Positions 4,049 to 28,480 of a DNA stretch of 64,000 nucleotides are shown here, piece by piece. Within the stretch, counting starts at the first letter, position 1, and each line of letters opens with the position of its first letter. Source of the stretch: Sphingopyxis sp. PAMC25046 (GTDB taxonomy: Bacteria > Pseudomonadota > Alphaproteobacteria > Sphingomonadales > Sphingomonadaceae); contig NZ_CP039250.1 of NCBI RefSeq assembly GCF_004795895.1, positions 744,001-808,000 of the forward strand. Direction: 5' to 3'. The notes below the pieces were generated by a model. It worked only from the letters and a program-made list of their open reading frames with translations, was not told the origin of the DNA and did not search any database. The translations under genes and the position numbers were made by a program.

Positions 4049-4740
4049 ATGCGTCCTTTCTCGGTCGGTTCCACCAGCCATGAACGCGTCAGCGGGTCGC
4101 GCATCGCGCGGCCTTCATAGCGTTCGAACCAGCGGGGGTTGGCCTGCCGTATCGCAGTCGCGGATCGCACATCGGGCGAAAATCGCAAGAACACGAGGGC
4201 GGGCGGTCTCCAGTCTGTCCAATGGCTTTTCTGGTCTGCGGGCCGGACAAAACGCCGCAGCCATCCCATCGCACGTCTTGCATGGGCGCGGTCGTTATAG
4301 CCCGGACGCGCGACAACCGCAATCGGCATCAATCGCGCGATCTCCCGCCAGTCGCGCCATTGGGGCAGCTGAACCAGATTGTCGGCGCCCATGATCCAGA
4401 TGAACCGGCGGTTCGGGTAACGCCGGACGAGCCTTTTGAGCGTATCGACCGTATAGCGCGTGCCGAGCTCGGCCTCGATCGCGGTCGCGCGGATCGGCGA
4501 CCGCCGCGCCATCCGCCGCGCCGAACCGAGCCGGGCGGGGAGTGGGGCCATGCCCGCCTTCGGCTTCAAAGGATTGCCGGGCGAGACGAGCCACCACAGC
4601 TCGTCGAGCCCCAGCGCCTCGATCACATTGAGGCTGATCGCGCGATGCCCGCCATGCGCGGGATTGAAGCTGCCGCCGAGGAGGCCGGTGGGGATTTTCC
4701 GGTTCAGGGCCGGACCTGCCCCGTCCCGCGCACGAGCCAT
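4045..4740 (-). CDS. nadD: Nicotinate-nucleotide adenylyltransferase NadD
   Basis: Cytosolic enzyme that joins ATP and nicotinic acid mononucleotide to make deamido-NAD in NAD synthesis. The 231-residue product carries the nucleotidyltransferase motif GGSFNPAHGGH at about 22-32, WWLVSPGNPLK, the IMGADNL segment, and the C-terminal SATAIR motif that binds ATP phosphates. The start at 4740 overlaps the 3' end of proA by 37 bases. A CTG codon overlapping the proA stop is a possible alternative start, but ATG is preferred. It is downstream of proA and overlaps rsfS, so this is one transcription unit. Confidence 0.95.
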   Translation of the reverse strand: MARARDGAGPALNRKIPTGLLGGSFNPAHGGHRAISLNVIEALGLDELWWLVSPGNPLKPKAGMAPLPARLGSARRMARRSPIRATAIEAELGTRYTVDTLKRLVRRYPNRRFIWIMGADNLVQLPQWRDWREIARLMPIAVVARPGYNDRAHARRAMGWLRRFVRPADQKSHWTDWRPPALVFLRFSPDVRSATAIRQANPRWFERYEGRAMRDPLTRSWLVEPTEKGRI

Positions 4741-5990
4741 TTGTACGTCGTCAGCCCTTCGAGCGCGACGGGGCCGCGCGCGTGGAGGCGCCCCGTCGCG
4801 ATGCCGATTTCGGCGCCGAGGCCGAATTCGCCGCCGTCGGCGAACTGCGTCGAGGCATTGTGCATGACGATCGCGCTGTCGACCCCGGTAAGGAAGCGTT
4901 CGGCGGTTGCGGCGTCCTCGGTGACGATCGCGTCGGTGTGGCGGCTCGAATGCGCGTCGATATGCGAAAGCGCCCCTGCGAGCCCGTCGACCAGTGCGAC
5001 CGAGACGATCGCGTCGAGATATTCGCAGTCCCAGTCGCCGGTTGCCGCAGTCTCGACGTGCGGGCTCAGCGCCGCGATGTCCTTGTCGCCGCGGACTTCG
5101 CAGCCCGCGGCGATCAGCGCGTCGACAATCGCGAGCGGGGCGGGATAGGCGCGATCGATCAGGATCGTCTCGGTCGCGCCGCAGACGCCGGTACGGCGCA
5201 TCTTGGCATTCACCGCCAGCGCCACCGCCTTTTGGGGATCGGCCGCACCGTCGATATAGAGATGATTGATCCCGTCGAGATGCGCGAGCACGGGCACGCG
5301 CGCCTCGTCCTGCACGCGCGCGACAAGGCCCTTGCCGCCGCGCGGGATGATGATGTCGATCAGCCCCTGCGCGCGCAGCATCGCGCCGACCGCGACGCGG
5401 TCCTGCGTCGGGACGAGCTGCACCGCATCGGAGGAGAGGCCCGCTTCGACCAGCCCCGCCGCGAAGGCCGCGTGAATGGCGCGGTTCGAATGCACCGCTT
5501 CGCTTCCGCCGCGCAGGATCACGGCATTGCCCGACATCAGCCCTAGCGCCGCCGCATCGGCGGTCACATTCGGGCGGCTTTCATAGATGATGCCGACGAC
5601 GCCCAGGGGCACGCGCACGCGGCTCAGCACCAGGCCGTTGGGGCGGGTCACGCGGTCGATCTCGGCGCCCGACGGATCGGGGAGCTTCGCAACATCGTCG
5701 ATCGCATGGGCGATCGCGCCAAGGCGACCCTCGTCGAGCCGCAGCCGGTCGAGCATCGCGCCCGACAGGCCGTTTTTCTGCCCGGCCGCCATATCCTCTT
5801 CATTGGCGGCGAGGATGTGCGCGGCTTGCGCGCGGATCGTCGCCGCCGCCGCGACCAGCGCCGCCGCCTTATCGGCGGTCGGCGTCAGCGCGACCCGTTT
5901 CGCGGCGGCACGCGCGCGCGCGCCCATGTCGGCGATCAGGGCGGCAGCGTCGCCGGGCAGGGGCGGGGCGGTCAGGGCTTCGGCGTTCAT
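4704..5990 (-). CDS. proA: Gamma-glutamyl phosphate reductase ProA
   Basis: Second enzyme of proline synthesis: NADPH-dependent reduction of glutamyl-5-phosphate to the semialdehyde. The 428 residues match the family length. Visible are GVVGIIYESRPNVTADAA, the glycine-rich AVILRGGSEAVHSN, the catalytic cysteine in MRRTGVCGATETILID, and the C-terminal GPVALEGLTTYKW. The chosen ATG (MNAEALTAPP) sits well inside a longer open frame; the upstream part lacks conservation. It heads the minus-strand block that includes nadD, rsfS and rlmH. proB is not in this window. Confidence 0.96.
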   Translation of the reverse strand: MNAEALTAPPLPGDAAALIADMGARARAAAKRVALTPTADKAAALVAAAATIRAQAAHILAANEEDMAAGQKNGLSGAMLDRLRLDEGRLGAIAHAIDDVAKLPDPSGAEIDRVTRPNGLVLSRVRVPLGVVGIIYESRPNVTADAAALGLMSGNAVILRGGSEAVHSNRAIHAAFAAGLVEAGLSSDAVQLVPTQDRVAVGAMLRAQGLIDIIIPRGGKGLVARVQDEARVPVLAHLDGINHLYIDGAADPQKAVALAVNAKMRRTGVCGATETILIDRAYPAPLAIVDALIAAGCEVRGDKDIAALSPHVETAATGDWDCEYLDAIVSVALVDGLAGALSHIDAHSSRHTDAIVTEDAATAERFLTGVDSAIVMHNASTQFADGGEFGLGAEIGIATGRLHARGPVALEGLTTYKWLVRGTGQVRP

Positions 5991-6069
5991 GGCGCGGCCA
6001 CTACCATGTTTCGCCCGACTCTCGAAAGCCCCGTTGCGCCTCGCGCCCGGCATCTTTAGGCATGGCGCC

Positions 6070-7197
6070 ATGACAGGGGATATCGAGGGTATCGGCAGCG
6101 CGGTAACCGCGGGCCTCGCGGCGCGCGCGGTCGAATCGCGGCATGGCGAGGGCAAAGCGCACGGCCACGCGCCGCCGCGCTGCCTCAATTGCGGTACCAG
6201 CCTGAAGGGCCCGCATTGCCACCATTGCGGACAGCGCGCCGACGTCCACCGCAGCTTCGGCGCGATCGGACACGACCTCGTTCACGCGATCTTCCACTTC
6301 GAAGGCAAGATCTGGAACACGTTGCCGCTGCTGGCGTGGCGGCCGGGCGACCTGACGCGGCGCTACATCCATGGCGAACGCGCGCGCTTCATTTCGCCGC
6401 TCGCTTTATTCCTGTTCGCGGTATTCCTGACCTATGCCGTGCTCGCGATGGTCGGCAGCGGCGGCGGCTTCGGCGAGGTGATCGCGAAGGAGGCGGCGGC
6501 GCAAACGCAATCGAACGCGCTCAAGGTCAGTTTCGAGGAAGAAATCGACCGGGTCGATGCGCGGTTGGCGCTGAAAGACTTGTCCGCGGCCGAACGAGAG
6601 CAGCTGAAGCAGGAACGCGAAACGCTTTTGAAAAGCGCCGACTATCTTGGCGTCGAGCGGCGCATGACGCGGGAGGAACGCGAGAGGGGGCCACCGGTTC
6701 TGGACGATCCCGCAGAGCAGGTGATGACGAGCGTGGATTTCGTGACGCGAACAAAGGTCGATACGGGTATCCCCGCCATCGACGAGGCGGCCGCAAAGGC
6801 GATCGCGAACCCCGGGCTGCTGCTCTACAAGCTCCAGGCCAACGCCTATAAATTCGCCTGGGCGCTGATCCCGCTGTCACTGCCCTTCATGTGGTTGCTC
6901 TATCCGTTCAGCCGCCGATTCCATACTTATGACCATTTCGTCTTCGTCACTTACTCGATTTCGTTCATGCTGCTGCTGTTCGTGGTCGTGCGGCTTTTGA
7001 ACCTGACGATCTTCGGCGATCTCGCGATCTTTTTCGCGATGCTCTATGTGCCTTTCCACATGTATCGCCAGTTGCGCGGCGCCTATCGCTCGTCGCGGTT
7101 CGGCGCGTTCGTGCGCGCCAACCTGCTGCTCTTTTTCAGCCTGTTTGCGGTGATCTGGTTCATGCTGCTGCTGCTTGCGCTCGGGATCAGCGGCTAG
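6070..7197 (+). CDS. DUF3667 domain membrane protein
   Basis: 375-residue protein of unknown function. Residues about 37-54 form a zinc-ribbon-like knuckle, CLNCGTSLKGPHCHHCGQ, that defines DUF3667, followed by a hydrophobic segment (SPLALFLFAVFLTYAVLAMV). A charged 100-residue soluble middle with coiled-coil character (KDLSAAEREQLKQERETLL) leads to three or four C-terminal membrane segments. The ATG at 6070 follows a non-conserved stretch of the open frame; no strong ribosome binding site decides it. It stands alone, divergent from proA. The family is common in proteobacteria and bacteroidetes; its role is not established. Confidence 0.82.
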   Translation: MTGDIEGIGSAVTAGLAARAVESRHGEGKAHGHAPPRCLNCGTSLKGPHCHHCGQRADVHRSFGAIGHDLVHAIFHFEGKIWNTLPLLAWRPGDLTRRYIHGERARFISPLALFLFAVFLTYAVLAMVGSGGGFGEVIAKEAAAQTQSNALKVSFEEEIDRVDARLALKDLSAAEREQLKQERETLLKSADYLGVERRMTREERERGPPVLDDPAEQVMTSVDFVTRTKVDTGIPAIDEAAAKAIANPGLLLYKLQANAYKFAWALIPLSLPFMWLLYPFSRRFHTYDHFVFVTYSISFMLLLFVVVRLLNLTIFGDLAIFFAMLYVPFHMYRQLRGAYRSSRFGAFVRANLLLFFSLFAVIWFMLLLLALGISG

Positions 7198-22972: not shown

Positions 22973-23008
22973 TGCGCTACAAATGTAGCACGCTACAAAT
23001 GTAGCGCA
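22973..23008 (+). promoter_or_regulatory. Tandem BlaI/MecI-type operators before the BlaI-like regulator
   Basis: Two identical copies of GCTACAAATGTAGC (22976-22989 and 22992-23005), two bases apart, end just before the regulator start. TACA-n2-TGTA is the known recognition core of BlaI/MecI repressors. The pair is embedded in a larger palindrome of about 36 bases, which fits cooperative binding of two dimers. Confidence 0.85.
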
Positions 23009-23021
23009 TGAGGTGATTCGA

Positions 23022-23396
23022 ATGCTGTCCAGTCTGCCCCCACGCGAACGCGAAATCGTCGACATATTGTACGAGCGCGGCGCATCCACGGTCACCGAGA
23101 TCGGCGACGCGCTCGCCGACCCGTTGTCGGGTTCGGCGATCCGCGCGATGCTGAAGCGGCTTGAGACCAAAGGCTTTGTCGCGCGCGAAGCGTCGGAGCG
23201 CGGCTTTGTCTATGCGCCGAGCGTGTCGGACAAGACCGCGCGCAAGTCGGCGCTGAGCCAGGTCGTGCGGGTCTTCTTCAACGGATCGGCGACGAGCGCC
23301 GCGGCAGCGCTGCTCGGCATGCAGGACGAGATGACCGGCGACGAGCTCGACGAGCTCGAAAAAATGATTGCCAAGGCACGCGAAGGGAGAGGGTGA
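23022..23396 (+). CDS. BlaI/MecI/CopY family transcriptional repressor
   Basis: 124-residue winged-helix repressor with a C-terminal dimerisation helix. LPPREREIVDILYERGASTVTEI and GSAIRAMLKRLETKGFVAREA form the DNA-binding part; the tail ends DELEKMIAKAREG as in BlaI. A GTG three codons upstream is possible, but GAGGTG stands 7 bases before the chosen ATG. The stop overlaps the start of the M56 gene (TGATG), the classic BlaI-BlaR1 pairing. Tandem operators upstream imply autorepression relieved when the M56 protease cleaves the repressor. No beta-lactamase is adjacent. Confidence 0.93.
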   Translation: MLSSLPPREREIVDILYERGASTVTEIGDALADPLSGSAIRAMLKRLETKGFVAREASERGFVYAPSVSDKTARKSALSQVVRVFFNGSATSAAAALLGMQDEMTGDELDELEKMIAKAREGRG

Positions 23397-25123
23397 TGCT
23401 GACCACCGCCATGTTGCTGGGCCTCGCCTGGAAATCCGCCGTCGTCGCGGCGCTGACGCTGGCGCTGCTCCGCCTCGCGCGGGCGCGTTCGGCGGGCGAG
23501 CGGTCGATGATCGCGCATGCGGGGCTTGCGGCGCTGCTCGCGCTGCCCGCCGCAATCCTGCTGCTGCCGCAATGGGCGCCGCTTCCGGCTAACTGGTTCG
23601 CGGCGCCCGCCTCGCTCGCCCTCGAAACACAGGCAACCGGGGGATCGGTGATCGATCCGGCCGCCGCCACGACGTCAGTCCCTGTCGTGGTCGATGGCGC
23701 CGGATCGACACCGATCGTCGTCGACTGGAGCGACCTTGCCCCCTTTCTCTATCTTGTCCCGCTCGTCCTGCTGTGCGGAGTGATGGCGCTGGCGGTCGTG
23801 CGGCTGTTCGCGATGCGTGGACGCGCCGAGATCCTCGTCGAACGCTCGTGGCTGTCGGCACTCGCCGAGGCGCAGCGGCGGATGGGGTTCAAGCATGGCA
23901 CCGCGCTTCTGGTCAGCAAGGAGCTGCGTTCGCCGATCAGCTGGGGCGTGCTGCGCCCGACGATCGTGCTGAGCCCGAAAGCCGTCGCGGCGGCGGGCGA
24001 GGCCGAGGCGATCATCGCGCACGAACTGGCGCATGTCGCACGGCTCGACTGGGCGAAATTGCTCGGCGCACGCGTCGCCTGCGCGGTCTTCTGGTTCAAT
24101 CCGCTGGTGTGGATGCTGGCGCGCGAGAGCCATCAATTGCGCGAGGAAGCCGCCGACGATGCGGTGCTGATGGCCGACATCGATGGCCCCGACTATGCGA
24201 CGCTGCTCGTCGGCGCGGCGCGCCATGACAATCAGGGCGCGCTGCTCGCCGCGCACGGCGTCGCGCCGGGCAAGGACAGCCTGAAACGCCGCATCACGCG
24301 CGTTCTCGACGGTAGCCTGCGGCGCGGCCCGGCAAGCGCGAGCTGGATGCTGATGAGCCTTGTGCTGCTCGCCGGCGTCACCGCGCCGCTCGCCGCCTTT
24401 TCGGCGACGGCGAAGCCCGAGGCGGCGGCGGGCGTCCACCCTGTCGCCGCCTCGACCACCAGGACGGCGACGACTGTGACGTCGCGGTCGGCAGCGGCCG
24501 CCAAGGATGCTGGGGTCGAGGGGGTCGCCACCGCCAACGCGAAGCCGCTGACCGCCGAACAGCTCGTCGGCATGCGCGCGGTCGGCGTGACCCCCGAATA
24601 TGTCGAGAAAATCCGCGAGAGTGGGGGGTCGATCGACGCCGACGACATCATCTCGGCCAAGGCGAGCGGGATCGACCCCGCCTATATCCGGCAGATGCGC
24701 GCCATCATTCCCGGCGCCGATTTCGACGATCTGGTCGGTGCGCGCCACGTCGGGGTCGACGCGGCTTTTGCCCGCGACATGCGCTCGCATTTCCCGGCGG
24801 TCGGCATCGATGATCTGATCGCGCTGAAGGCGATGGGGGTCGACTGCGATTTCGTCACCGAGATGCAGCGGTCGGGCGTCAGGATGCGCGATGCCGACGA
24901 TGCGATCGAATTGCGTGCGGTGGGCGCGTTCCGGCCGAGCGCGAAAGCCCGCCCCCCGGCAACGCCGCGACCGGTCGCAAAGGCGGTGCGCGGCGGCGAT
25001 GTCGCGGTCCTCGACATGGAACGCGGCGTGATCGAGGCGCGCCGCGCCGACGGCCGCACCGCGCGGATCGAAATGCCGATGACGCCCGAACCCCCGGCGC
25101 CGCCGACGGGCCCCGACGATTAG
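23396..25123 (+). CDS. M56 (BlaR1-like) membrane metalloprotease with C-terminal repeat domain
   Basis: 575-residue sensor-protease. N-terminal helices (about 5-30, 38-58) and a helix at about 115-138 precede the zinc motif HELAH at 209-213, with REEAADDAV supplying the third ligand region. A final helix at about 317-335 is followed by a 240-residue exported tail. Residues about 385-510 hold four to five repeats of about 28 residues, pattern DDLIxLKAxGVDxxYVxxMR, which replace the penicillin-binding sensor domain of true BlaR1. The same repeats occur in the next protein. It probably cleaves the upstream BlaI-like repressor after an envelope signal; that link is inferred from gene pairing. Confidence 0.9.
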   Translation: MLTTAMLLGLAWKSAVVAALTLALLRLARARSAGERSMIAHAGLAALLALPAAILLLPQWAPLPANWFAAPASLALETQATGGSVIDPAAATTSVPVVVDGAGSTPIVVDWSDLAPFLYLVPLVLLCGVMALAVVRLFAMRGRAEILVERSWLSALAEAQRRMGFKHGTALLVSKELRSPISWGVLRPTIVLSPKAVAAAGEAEAIIAHELAHVARLDWAKLLGARVACAVFWFNPLVWMLARESHQLREEAADDAVLMADIDGPDYATLLVGAARHDNQGALLAAHGVAPGKDSLKRRITRVLDGSLRRGPASASWMLMSLVLLAGVTAPLAAFSATAKPEAAAGVHPVAASTTRTATTVTSRSAAAAKDAGVEGVATANAKPLTAEQLVGMRAVGVTPEYVEKIRESGGSIDADDIISAKASGIDPAYIRQMRAIIPGADFDDLVGARHVGVDAAFARDMRSHFPAVGIDDLIALKAMGVDCDFVTEMQRSGVRMRDADDAIELRAVGAFRPSAKARPPATPRPVAKAVRGGDVAVLDMERGVIEARRADGRTARIEMPMTPEPPAPPTGPDD

Positions 25124-25245
25124 GGTCCTAACGCCCGGACATTCGTCCGAACGCACCGCCGATTGATCGAAACCTTGTTTGAAAAACGCCGCTGCGGCGG
25201 CGAGCGATGGCGCTCGCCTGGCGCACGGAGGGAGGAGTGCACCAT

Positions 25246-25992
25246 ATGAAGGCCCTGTTTTTTGCTAGCGGCGCCGCGCTGCTGTCGATCCTCGCCTGTT
25301 CGGCGCCGACCGCCGCCGCCGATCCGCTGGTGCTGACCGACGTGCGCTGGATCGCCGAGCCCGCGAGCGGGAAGAAGAGCGCCCCGCGCATCCGCATCCA
25401 GCACCGCAAGTCGAGCAGCGACCAGAGCTTCGACGGATCGCGACCCTATTTCGCCGGTGCCGAGGCGGCGCTGCGGCGCAAAACACCCGGACCCGTCAGC
25501 TTTGAGGTCACGCACGACGCGGGGACGCTGTCGTGCACCGGCACGCTCACGGCCGCCTTCGAAGGGCGGGGCGCGTGCCGCTTTACCTCCGATCCCGCGT
25601 TCGAGCGGGCGCTCGGCGAGCGCGGGCTCGCACCCGAGCAGCGCTCGTCGTTGCTCGCGATGCTCCTCGTCGATGCCTCGATCGAGCTGGCCGACGGGCT
25701 GACGCGCGAGGGCGTTCGGCCGAAGGACGCCGACGACCTGATCGCCGCCGCCGCGCTCGACGTGCGGCCCGAATATGTGCGCGATCTCAGGTCCGAGGCG
25801 CTGGTGCTCACCGATGTCGAGGATGCGATCGCGTGCAAGGCGCTTGGCGTCGATGGCGCCTATGTGCGCGGGCTCGCCGCTGCGGGATACCGCAAGTTGA
25901 GCGCCGACGAGGTCGTAAGCATGAAGGCGATGGGCGTGACGGGCGAATATGCGCAGGCGATGAACCGCGCGGCGGGGGGAAAAGCCAAGTGA
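25246..25992 (+). CDS. Exported protein with M56-linked 28-residue repeats, function unknown
   Basis: 248-residue protein with a signal peptide (MKALFFASGAALLSILACSAPTAAA), in which the Cys may also allow lipidation. A unique N-terminal domain (about 26-150), with two Cys in GTLSCTGTL and GRGACRFT that may form a disulfide, is followed by three C-terminal repeats such as LSADEVVSMKAMGVTGEYAQ and ADDLIAAAALDVRPEYVRDL. These match the tail repeats of the preceding M56 protease. GGAGGAG precedes the chosen ATG; an upstream in-frame ATG at 25207 is less likely. Its stop overlaps the next start (TGATG). Likely a partner or ligand carrier for the M56 sensor; inference only. Confidence 0.75.
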   Translation: MKALFFASGAALLSILACSAPTAAADPLVLTDVRWIAEPASGKKSAPRIRIQHRKSSSDQSFDGSRPYFAGAEAALRRKTPGPVSFEVTHDAGTLSCTGTLTAAFEGRGACRFTSDPAFERALGERGLAPEQRSSLLAMLLVDASIELADGLTREGVRPKDADDLIAAAALDVRPEYVRDLRSEALVLTDVEDAIACKALGVDGAYVRGLAAAGYRKLSADEVVSMKAMGVTGEYAQAMNRAAGGKAK

Positions 25993-28085
25993 TGCGATGG
26001 ACCAGCTTCGCGGCGATCGCCACCGCGCTTTCCAACCCGGCGCTGGCGCAGGAAACGCCCGCGCCGAGCGGTGACACCCCGCCGCCCGCTGCGACCGAGG
26101 TCGCCCCGACCGCGACCACGCCGGCGCGGCAGGTCTACACCCCGGCCGACTTCGCGCGCTATGCGCCCGTCAACGCCTATGACATGCTGATCCAGGTGCC
26201 GGGTTTCCAGATCCGCGACAGCGAGGAGCTGCGCGGGCTGGGGCAGGCGACGGGCAATGTCCTGTTCAACGGCAAGCGGCCGTCGAACAAGGCCGACGAC
26301 ATGTATACCCAGCTGTCGCGTATCCCCGGCGGCAATGTCGAGCGGATCGAGATCGTAGACGGCGCGACGCTCGATATTCCGGGCCTGTCGGGGCAGGTCG
26401 CCAACATCGTCTATCGCGCCGACGGTATTTCGGGGCAATTTTCGTGGAAGCCGCAGTTCCGCCCGCATTACACCGACCCGCTGTTCACGCGCGGCGACGT
26501 GTCGGTGCGCGGGCGGTCGGGCGAGATCGAATATGAAGCGTCGCTCAACAACGACGATTCGGCGCGGAGCGGCGCGGGCGGCCCGACTTTGATCTATGAC
26601 GGCGCGGGCAATATCATCGAGCGGCGCAAGGATATCTGGCACACCCATTATGACACGCCGAAGCTTTCGGGGCGCATCACATGGGATCCGGCGGGGGACA
26701 CCGTCGCCAATCTCGGCGGCCATTATCAGCGCAAATATGATCGCTATTACGAGGACGGCGTGCGCATCGCGCCGGGGCTGCCGGACAGCATCCGCACCGT
26801 GCGCGAAAATGCCGACAGCTGGAATTACGAGATCAATGGCGACTACCAGCTCGGGCTCGGACCGGGGAAGCTTAAGCTGATCGGGCTCCGCCGCTTCAGC
26901 CACGAACCCTATCGCCAGGAAATCGTGACCACCCCCGAAGGTGGCGTCGCCATCGGCGACCGCTTCATGCAGACGGGCGACCTCGGCGAGACGATCGGGC
27001 GCGGCGAATATCAGTGGAAGATGTTCGGCGGCGACTGGCAGCTCTCGGGCGAAGCGGCGTTCAACACGCTCGACAACGTCGCGTCGCTCGCGGTGCTCGA
27101 TCCCTCCGGCGATTTCGTCGATATTCCGTTCGAGGGCGGCACCGGCGGGGTGAGCGAGGATCGCTATGAAGGACTTTTGAGCTTCGGCCGCAAGCTGACC
27201 GACAAGCTCAATTTCCAGATCATCGCGGGCGCCGAGCATTCGACGATCACCCAGACCGGCGTGAATGGCCTCACCCGCAGCTTCTTCCGCCCCAAGGGGT
27301 CGATTTCGCTCGCCTGGGCGCCTTCGGCCGATTTCGACATATCGGTGAAGCTCCGGCGGCGGGTGCTTCAGCTGTCCTTCTATGACTTTCTCGCGCGCGC
27401 CTTTCTGAACGACGGCAACCAGAATGCGAGCAACAATGACCTGCGCCCTCAGCAGGACTGGACCTATGAGGGCGAGATCAACAAGAAGTTCGGTCCGTGG
27501 GGGTCGACCAAGCTGATCTTCATCTATCGCGACGTCGAGGATCGCGTCGACGTGATCCCGATCGGCGAGAACGGCGAGGCGGTCGGCAATATCGCGAAGG
27601 CGAGGGCGGGCGCGATCGACTGGACCTCGACCATCAACCTCGACCCTGCGGGGCTGAAGGGGGTACGGCTCAACACGCGCGTGCTGTTGCAGAAGAGCTC
27701 GCTGCGCGATCCCTTTACCGGCGAAAAGCGGCAGTGGAGCGGCTTCACCGACACCGTCGTCGAGCTGGGCCTGCGTCACGATATTCCCGCGAGCGACTGG
27801 GCGTGGGGCGGCGACCTCGAATATTCGCATTACCAGCCAAATTATCGCCGCAACCAGACCGACAAGGTCTGGGAAGGGCCGGTGTGGGCGTCGCTGTTTG
27901 TCGAGAACAAGGATGTGTTTGGCCTGACCGTCCGCGCGCAGGTTTCGAACATCGTCAATGCGCGTTCGAGGCGCGACCGCACCGTCTATACAGGGGTGCG
28001 CGGCGACAGCCCGATTTCCTTCATCGAACAGCGCGACCGGTTGATCGGGCCGATCTTTGTCTTTTCGGTGCGCGGGACATTCTGA
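25992..28085 (+). CDS. TonB-dependent outer-membrane receptor of the M56 operon
   Basis: 697-residue outer-membrane beta-barrel transporter. Signal peptide MRWTSFAAIATALSNPALA; a Pro/Thr-rich linker to about residue 50; then the plug domain (VNAYDMLIQVPGFQIRDSEE, GNVLFNGKRPSNKADDM, GGNVERIEIVDGATLDIPG). A barrel of alternating strands follows, ending in aromatic FVFSVRGTF. A standard TonB box (IVVTA type) is not obvious, and the plug resembles receptors that combine Pro-rich leaders with a short PAN-like plug. It overlaps the preceding repeat protein by one base, so it belongs to the BlaI-controlled operon. Confidence 0.88.
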   Translation: MRWTSFAAIATALSNPALAQETPAPSGDTPPPAATEVAPTATTPARQVYTPADFARYAPVNAYDMLIQVPGFQIRDSEELRGLGQATGNVLFNGKRPSNKADDMYTQLSRIPGGNVERIEIVDGATLDIPGLSGQVANIVYRADGISGQFSWKPQFRPHYTDPLFTRGDVSVRGRSGEIEYEASLNNDDSARSGAGGPTLIYDGAGNIIERRKDIWHTHYDTPKLSGRITWDPAGDTVANLGGHYQRKYDRYYEDGVRIAPGLPDSIRTVRENADSWNYEINGDYQLGLGPGKLKLIGLRRFSHEPYRQEIVTTPEGGVAIGDRFMQTGDLGETIGRGEYQWKMFGGDWQLSGEAAFNTLDNVASLAVLDPSGDFVDIPFEGGTGGVSEDRYEGLLSFGRKLTDKLNFQIIAGAEHSTITQTGVNGLTRSFFRPKGSISLAWAPSADFDISVKLRRRVLQLSFYDFLARAFLNDGNQNASNNDLRPQQDWTYEGEINKKFGPWGSTKLIFIYRDVEDRVDVIPIGENGEAVGNIAKARAGAIDWTSTINLDPAGLKGVRLNTRVLLQKSSLRDPFTGEKRQWSGFTDTVVELGLRHDIPASDWAWGGDLEYSHYQPNYRRNQTDKVWEGPVWASLFVENKDVFGLTVRAQVSNIVNARSRRDRTVYTGVRGDSPISFIEQRDRLIGPIFVFSVRGTF

Positions 28086-28102: not shown

Positions 28103-28480
28103 GTGACGAAGCGACGCATCAAAATCTATTTCGACGGCGGATGCCGGCCCAATCCGGGAAAGATGGAAACCGCCGTCGTGACCGGCGGTGCGGCCATCGT
28201 CGTGCGCGATGCGGGGATCGGCAGCAGCCAGGACGCTGAATGGCTGGCGCTGATCGCGGCGCTGCGGCTCGCGCAGGACATGGAGCTCGCTCATTATATC
28301 CTGCTCGGCGATGCCGCGGCGGTGATCGAGCAGGCGAACGGCATCGTGCGCGCACGCGGCGAAGCGGCCGAGCATCTCGCCGCCTTTCGGGCGCTGGCCG
28401 GCGACGGGCCGATGCCTGCGGTGCGCCATATCAAACGTACGCAGAATCTCGCGGGGATCGCGCTGGCGCGGGGGCGGTAG
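28103..28480 (+). CDS. RNase H-like fold protein, likely lacking the last catalytic Asp
   Basis: 125-residue protein starting at GTG with AGGAG six bases before it. The RNase HI/reverse transcriptase-like pattern is visible: IYFDGGCRPNPG with Asp11, DAEWLALIAAL with Glu46, and LLGDAAAVIEQ with Asp70. The fourth acidic residue, normally in an N-x-x-A-D context at the C-terminus, is Gly118 here (TQNLAGIALA). Family members cut RNA in RNA-DNA hybrids; whether this one is active is doubtful. It lies 17 bases after the TonB receptor, but with its own ribosome binding site. Confidence 0.8.
   Translation: MTKRRIKIYFDGGCRPNPGKMETAVVTGGAAIVVRDAGIGSSQDAEWLALIAALRLAQDMELAHYILLGDAAAVIEQANGIVRARGEAAEHLAAFRALAGDGPMPAVRHIKRTQNLAGIALARGR

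Follow-up and report, generated by a model that had tools for sequence, protein, structure and literature searches.

A 64,000-nucleotide stretch of Sphingopyxis sp. PAMC25046 (NZ_CP039250.1 positions 744,001-808,000; hereafter the window, within which all coordinates are counted) carries four adjacent genes that encode a BlaI-family repressor, an M56 (BlaR1-type) membrane zinc protease ending in a repeat tail, an exported repeat protein (Rep) and a TonB-dependent outer-membrane receptor. Sequence comparison among genomes supports these four as one conserved unit and a predicted operon. We propose that the operon is probably autoregulated and controls an outer-membrane uptake receptor via a BlaR1-type proteolytic switch. 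The system is a real variant of BlaR1-BlaI signalling, of which no earlier description was found in the literature searched. The features in the window are:

22977..22988, no strand: BlaI-type operator, upstream copy CTACAAATGTAG, the same 12 bases in 32/32 fetched operon loci
22993..23004, no strand: BlaI-type operator, downstream copy CTACAAATGTAG, 16 bases past the first, included in the 33-promoter alignment
23022..23396, + strand: BlaI-family repressor, 124 residues, Pfam Penicillinase_R PF03965 E=6.5e-23, with an alternative GTG start at 23013
23396..25123, + strand: membrane zinc protease of the M56 (BlaR1) type, ending in a repeat tail, 575 residues, Peptidase_M56 E=1.5e-28
24020..24034, + strand: HELAH zinc-binding motif, M56 residues 209-213, invariant in A2 and A5
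24542..24931, + strand: M56 repeat tail, residues 383-512, delimited by predicted model, motif spacing and shuffle test
25199..25218, + strand: GGCGAGCG-loop-CGCTCGCC, a hairpin located between M56 and Rep, conserved across the compared gaps
25246..25992, + strand: Rep, exported repeat protein, predicted structure with a predicted local distance difference test score (pLDDT) of 90.6
25992..28085, + strand: TonB-dependent outer-membrane receptor, 697 residues, Plug PF07715 E=3.9e-8
28103..28480, + strand: RNase H-like gene, possible fifth operon gene, PF13456 E=4.6e-9

The gene order BlaI, M56, repeat protein and TonB receptor, as given by an earlier sequence-only reading of this DNA, is confirmed by the Pfam matches and the coordinates, including the Plug domain in the last gene. 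The same reading described the junctions as overlapping or nearly so, which holds for BlaI-M56 and Rep-receptor, each with a one-base overlap, but not for M56 and Rep, which are spaced by 122 bases. Rep is present in 48 of 60 genomes of the same genus, and in all 48 the repeat-tailed M56, Rep and the receptor are neighbours, as seen in fetched loci for 32 genomes and read by eye from positions for 16; contig ends interrupt some of them, within Rep in G010 and within the receptor in G039. The sequence-only reading had named independent occurrence in most genomes as evidence against a single system; within the genus, M56, Rep and the receptor occur together in every Rep-bearing genome. Among the fetched operons, the gene order is kept in 32/32, BlaI and M56 overlap by 1 or 4 bases in 25/32, Rep and the receptor overlap in 29/32, and the M56-Rep gap ranges from 78 to 146 bases. 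In the 12 Rep-less genomes, the M56 profile finds no M56 of the operon clade, although G037 and G042 give weak matches over part of its length.

The proposed double BlaI-type operator was recovered as two exact copies. The palindrome TACANNTGTA occurs twice in the window, both times at the operators, against 0.03 occurrences expected. All 32 fetched operon loci possess two operators of identical sequence, each of 12 bases and spaced by 16-17 bases, and when 33 promoters are aligned, the palindromes and a CTTGCCA element stand out against a diverged upstream part. Judged from sequence, the palindromic operator sits at the repressor's own promoter, as in BlaR1-BlaI systems. Outside the genus, an exact CTACANNTGTAG precedes BlaI in 14 of 17 fetched loci, in one or two copies and, for L088, at a distance of ~640 bases; no exact copy was found before BlaI in the remaining three (L093-L095).

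The repressor matches the NCBIfam CopY, BlaI and MecI models alike, with scores far under their cut-offs. In the protease, the zinc motif noticed earlier is the HELAH listed above. The last predicted membrane helix (residues 315-337) is followed by the repeat tail, which in the predicted model comprises four repeats of 28-29 residues, each a helix pair, followed by the opening helix of a fifth; the motif spacing is 28, 28 and 29. Alignment of the tail against the Rep repeats gave a score of 132, compared to a mean of 32 and a maximum of 55 for 1000 shuffles of the tail, in agreement with the repeats claimed to be common to both proteins. Moreover, the suggestion that M56 lacks a beta-lactam sensor is borne out by both databases: Pfam at E up to 1 revealed no penicillin-binding C-terminal sensor domain, and the NCBIfam model blaR1_generic scored 61.6 (cut-off 400), with an alignment spanning residues 118-304 only.

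Rep has two distinct parts in the predicted model: an N-terminal beta domain (residues 29-116), a feature absent from the sequence-only account, and four helix pairs (residues 135-247). Its N-terminus looks signal-type by eye, consistent with the predicted export. No Pfam or NCBIfam match, and no penicillin-binding domain, was obtained for Rep at E up to 1. In three Sphingopyxis loci (L042, L045 and L046), Rep has one additional 29-residue repeat.

The tie between Rep and the protease is further indicated by fusions of the two. The Rep relative of L097 shares 44% identity over 255 residues with the middle of P0351, a fragment with M56 in its first 70 residues, and 33% identity over 259 residues with the M56 tail in the Zixibacteria record L099. 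In two Zixibacteria loci, L099 and L100, the M56 gene follows a BlaI gene and the Rep domain lies within M56 itself. Rep is therefore most likely part of the protease's sensor, and may contact the protease directly.

The system extends beyond the genus. At E<=1e-45 and considering the best three candidates per genome, the M56 profile matched in 22/397 genomes of the family, representing 11/96 genera, and each of the 17 places beyond the genus was fetched (16 plus G097). The complete four-gene set is found in five loci of four other genera (L082, L083, L084, L085 and L087), and L089, where the contig ends, holds BlaI, M56, pieces of Rep and the beginning of a receptor. In L086 and L097, BlaI-M56-Rep has no receptor beside it. 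No repeat motif was found in the M56 of L088 and L090-L096. In a survey of the order, M56 occurs in 94/147 genomes; among the listed positions of the best seven candidates per genome, the receptor type adjoins M56 outside the genus only in G097.

Read directly from the sequence are the repressor, the operators at its own promoter, the BlaR1-fold protease and the homologous repeats in its tail and in the exported partner. We propose that, at rest, BlaI would occupy both operators and keep the operon low. The M56 repeats would form a periplasmic sensor arm located where BlaR1 has its penicillin sensor, of which Rep would be a detached piece, its likely partner being either the tail or the signal. 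A signal in the periplasm, perhaps one related to the envelope or to nutrients, would switch the protease on, presumably leading to BlaI cleavage; the loss of BlaI would enable the production of BlaI, M56, Rep and the receptor, the last acting as the effector in uptake, with possible feedback from its cargo to the sensor. Tentatively, and with less confidence, the system might typify a split-sensor M56-BlaI class, in which a TAL-effector-like helical solenoid tail and a free Rep with its beta domain constitute an exchangeable periplasmic sensor coupled to one receptor, and a proteolysed repressor governs nutrient or peptide uptake in Gram-negatives.

The sequence-only reading placed the receptor at the sensing end: on binding a ligand at the outer membrane, it would relay the signal via Rep to the M56 tail, freeing the operon. 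The receptor indeed stands beside Rep in every Rep-bearing Sphingopyxis genome and at 6/9 repeat-tailed M56 loci outside the genus (L082-L085, L087 and L066), with its start in L089. However, Pfam at E up to 1 gave Plug only, with no STN signalling domain. The receptor family profile matched solved receptors in the plug region only (the colicin I receptor with E=6.3e-7, and BtuB), and no barrel family was matched. The receptor, at >=68% identity, also occurs without the other genes in two genomes, G056 (99% complete) and G058 (87% complete). A midpoint-rooted tree built from 44 receptors places the operon type in a single clade, with a 41% paralogue outside it, and each of the solo receptors (L031 and L032) at a position of its own within that clade; given this nesting, the switch probably disappeared on two occasions, with the receptor retained. 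Together with the loci in which BlaI-M56-Rep lacks a receptor, the solo receptors favour the receptor as a controlled output over a necessary sensor. A receptor serving as sensor would also leave the loop with little visible output, and we consider this relay unlikely. Of the single sensory circuit proposed earlier, the conserved unit and the BlaR1-type protease are retained, but not the signal direction from receptor through repeats to protease. A receptor paralogue (~37-41% identity) lies in a conserved locus of L049-L052 and L054, flanked by genes that we take to be dapD and gpmA.

Several observations weigh against the autoregulated switch with the receptor as its output. The periplasmic side of the M56 tail is an assignment by homology to BlaR1. 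L066 has BlaI, M56 and the receptor without Rep, and two Acidobacteriota loci (L101 and L102) encode a Rep-like protein although neither BlaI nor M56 was found there; the co-occurrence of repeat proteins with M56 is seen throughout the genus but was not seen at these two loci. The scan of genome contigs behind them gave five loci only, including the query's own. G058, one of the two solo-receptor genomes, is only 87% complete. The RNase H-like gene is another possible output. In addition, the genome-wide operator tally, based on exact matches only, is 4 in G000 against 5 for the reversed pattern; being no higher than the control, it leaves only conserved position to count.

A second alternative, which we regard as improbable to a similar degree as the receptor relay, is a response to beta-lactams or peptidoglycan damage, with cell-wall stress as the signal and the receptor and Rep as an answer of envelope remodelling or resistance. 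Related BlaI-M56 pairs adjoin, in L090, a beta-lactamase-family gene (4164-5483; PF13354 E=6.3e-21) and, in L093, an L,D-transpeptidase gene (4945-6465; PF03734 E=1e-19), and the M56 of both loci falls in the same broad clade as that of the operon. Nevertheless, neither M56 nor Rep has a detectable penicillin-binding sensor domain, and the four genes include no cell-wall enzyme.

The four exact copies of CTACANNTGTAG in this genome (G000) comprise the two described here, one 19 bases upstream of a second BlaI gene (L067) and one before an exported S41 peptidase gene (G000:C1:864821-865721; L124). Among 44 S41 orthologues in 60 genomes, the site is exact in 36 and one base off in the other 8, the surrounding promoter being generally well conserved. 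The flanks of the S41 site, CGACTACAAATGTAGTTGA, resemble those of the second BlaI's site, CGACTACAAATGTAGTCAA, and differ from the GC-type flanks of the operon; on this sequence agreement, the S41 peptidase is probably under the second BlaI-M56 pair, with crosstalk possible. This assignment leaves unexplained that the S41 gene is present in 41/48 operon-bearing genomes versus 3/12 others (Fisher p=1.1e-4, ancestry not corrected). The least likely alternative, that the operon's own BlaI also drives a regulon in which receptor and S41 peptidase act jointly, for example in peptide uptake, would account for this co-presence and the conserved site, but is disfavoured by the flanks and by the homologues outside the genus (4/40 genomes, E<=1e-30), which show no exact site.

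Compared to the staphylococcal BlaR1-BlaI and MecR1-MecI systems, the operon shares a BlaI-family repressor, a BlaR1-fold M56 with HEXXH, an additional domain beyond the final membrane helix and TACANNTGTA-type palindromes before the repressor gene, which we take to be the operator type of those systems. It differs in having helix-pair repeats in place of the penicillin-binding sensor, an extra exported repeat protein, and a TonB receptor, perhaps with the RNase H-like gene, instead of beta-lactamase or PBP2a. With both the penicillin sensor and the resistance output missing from a BlaR1-BlaI-like core, we classify it as a variant rather than a member. M56 proteins carrying the same kind of repeats are also found in P0160, P0236, L099 and L100, with BlaI before M56 in L099 and L100 and a Rep-type domain in the same protein in L099, L100 and P0351. 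In P0160, P0236, L099 and L100, however, the sensor is a single protein, with more repeats in the first two, and no TonB receptor gene was noted beside M56 in L099 and L100. The grouping of a TonB receptor with a transenvelope regulator recalls FecA-FecR-FecI, a type of TonB-dependent surface signalling; in contrast to the Fec type, no STN was found, the four genes include no sigma or anti-sigma factor, and the regulator consists of a protease and a repressor.

BlaR1-BlaI is chiefly known as an antibiotic-resistance switch (review: PMC7593790). Here, the same core has a different sensor and a TonB receptor as its most visible output, and relatives carry beta-lactamase-family or L,D-transpeptidase genes. 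A conserved core with differing sensors and outputs suggests a general proteolytic signalling chassis whose sensors are swappable, and the compact operon offers a testable system for learning what a repeat-type sensor reads.

The RNase H-like gene, another feature absent from the sequence-only account, is separated from the receptor by 17 bases in the window. It follows the receptor in 26/32 fetched operon loci, with a gap of 16-190 bases, and in L032 it follows the solo receptor as well; it is a candidate for a fifth operon gene. The hairpin in the M56-Rep gap has no Rfam match; across 17 compared gaps it is strongly conserved, with a double change in 2/16 pairs and little covariation, and it may tune the expression of Rep and the receptor.
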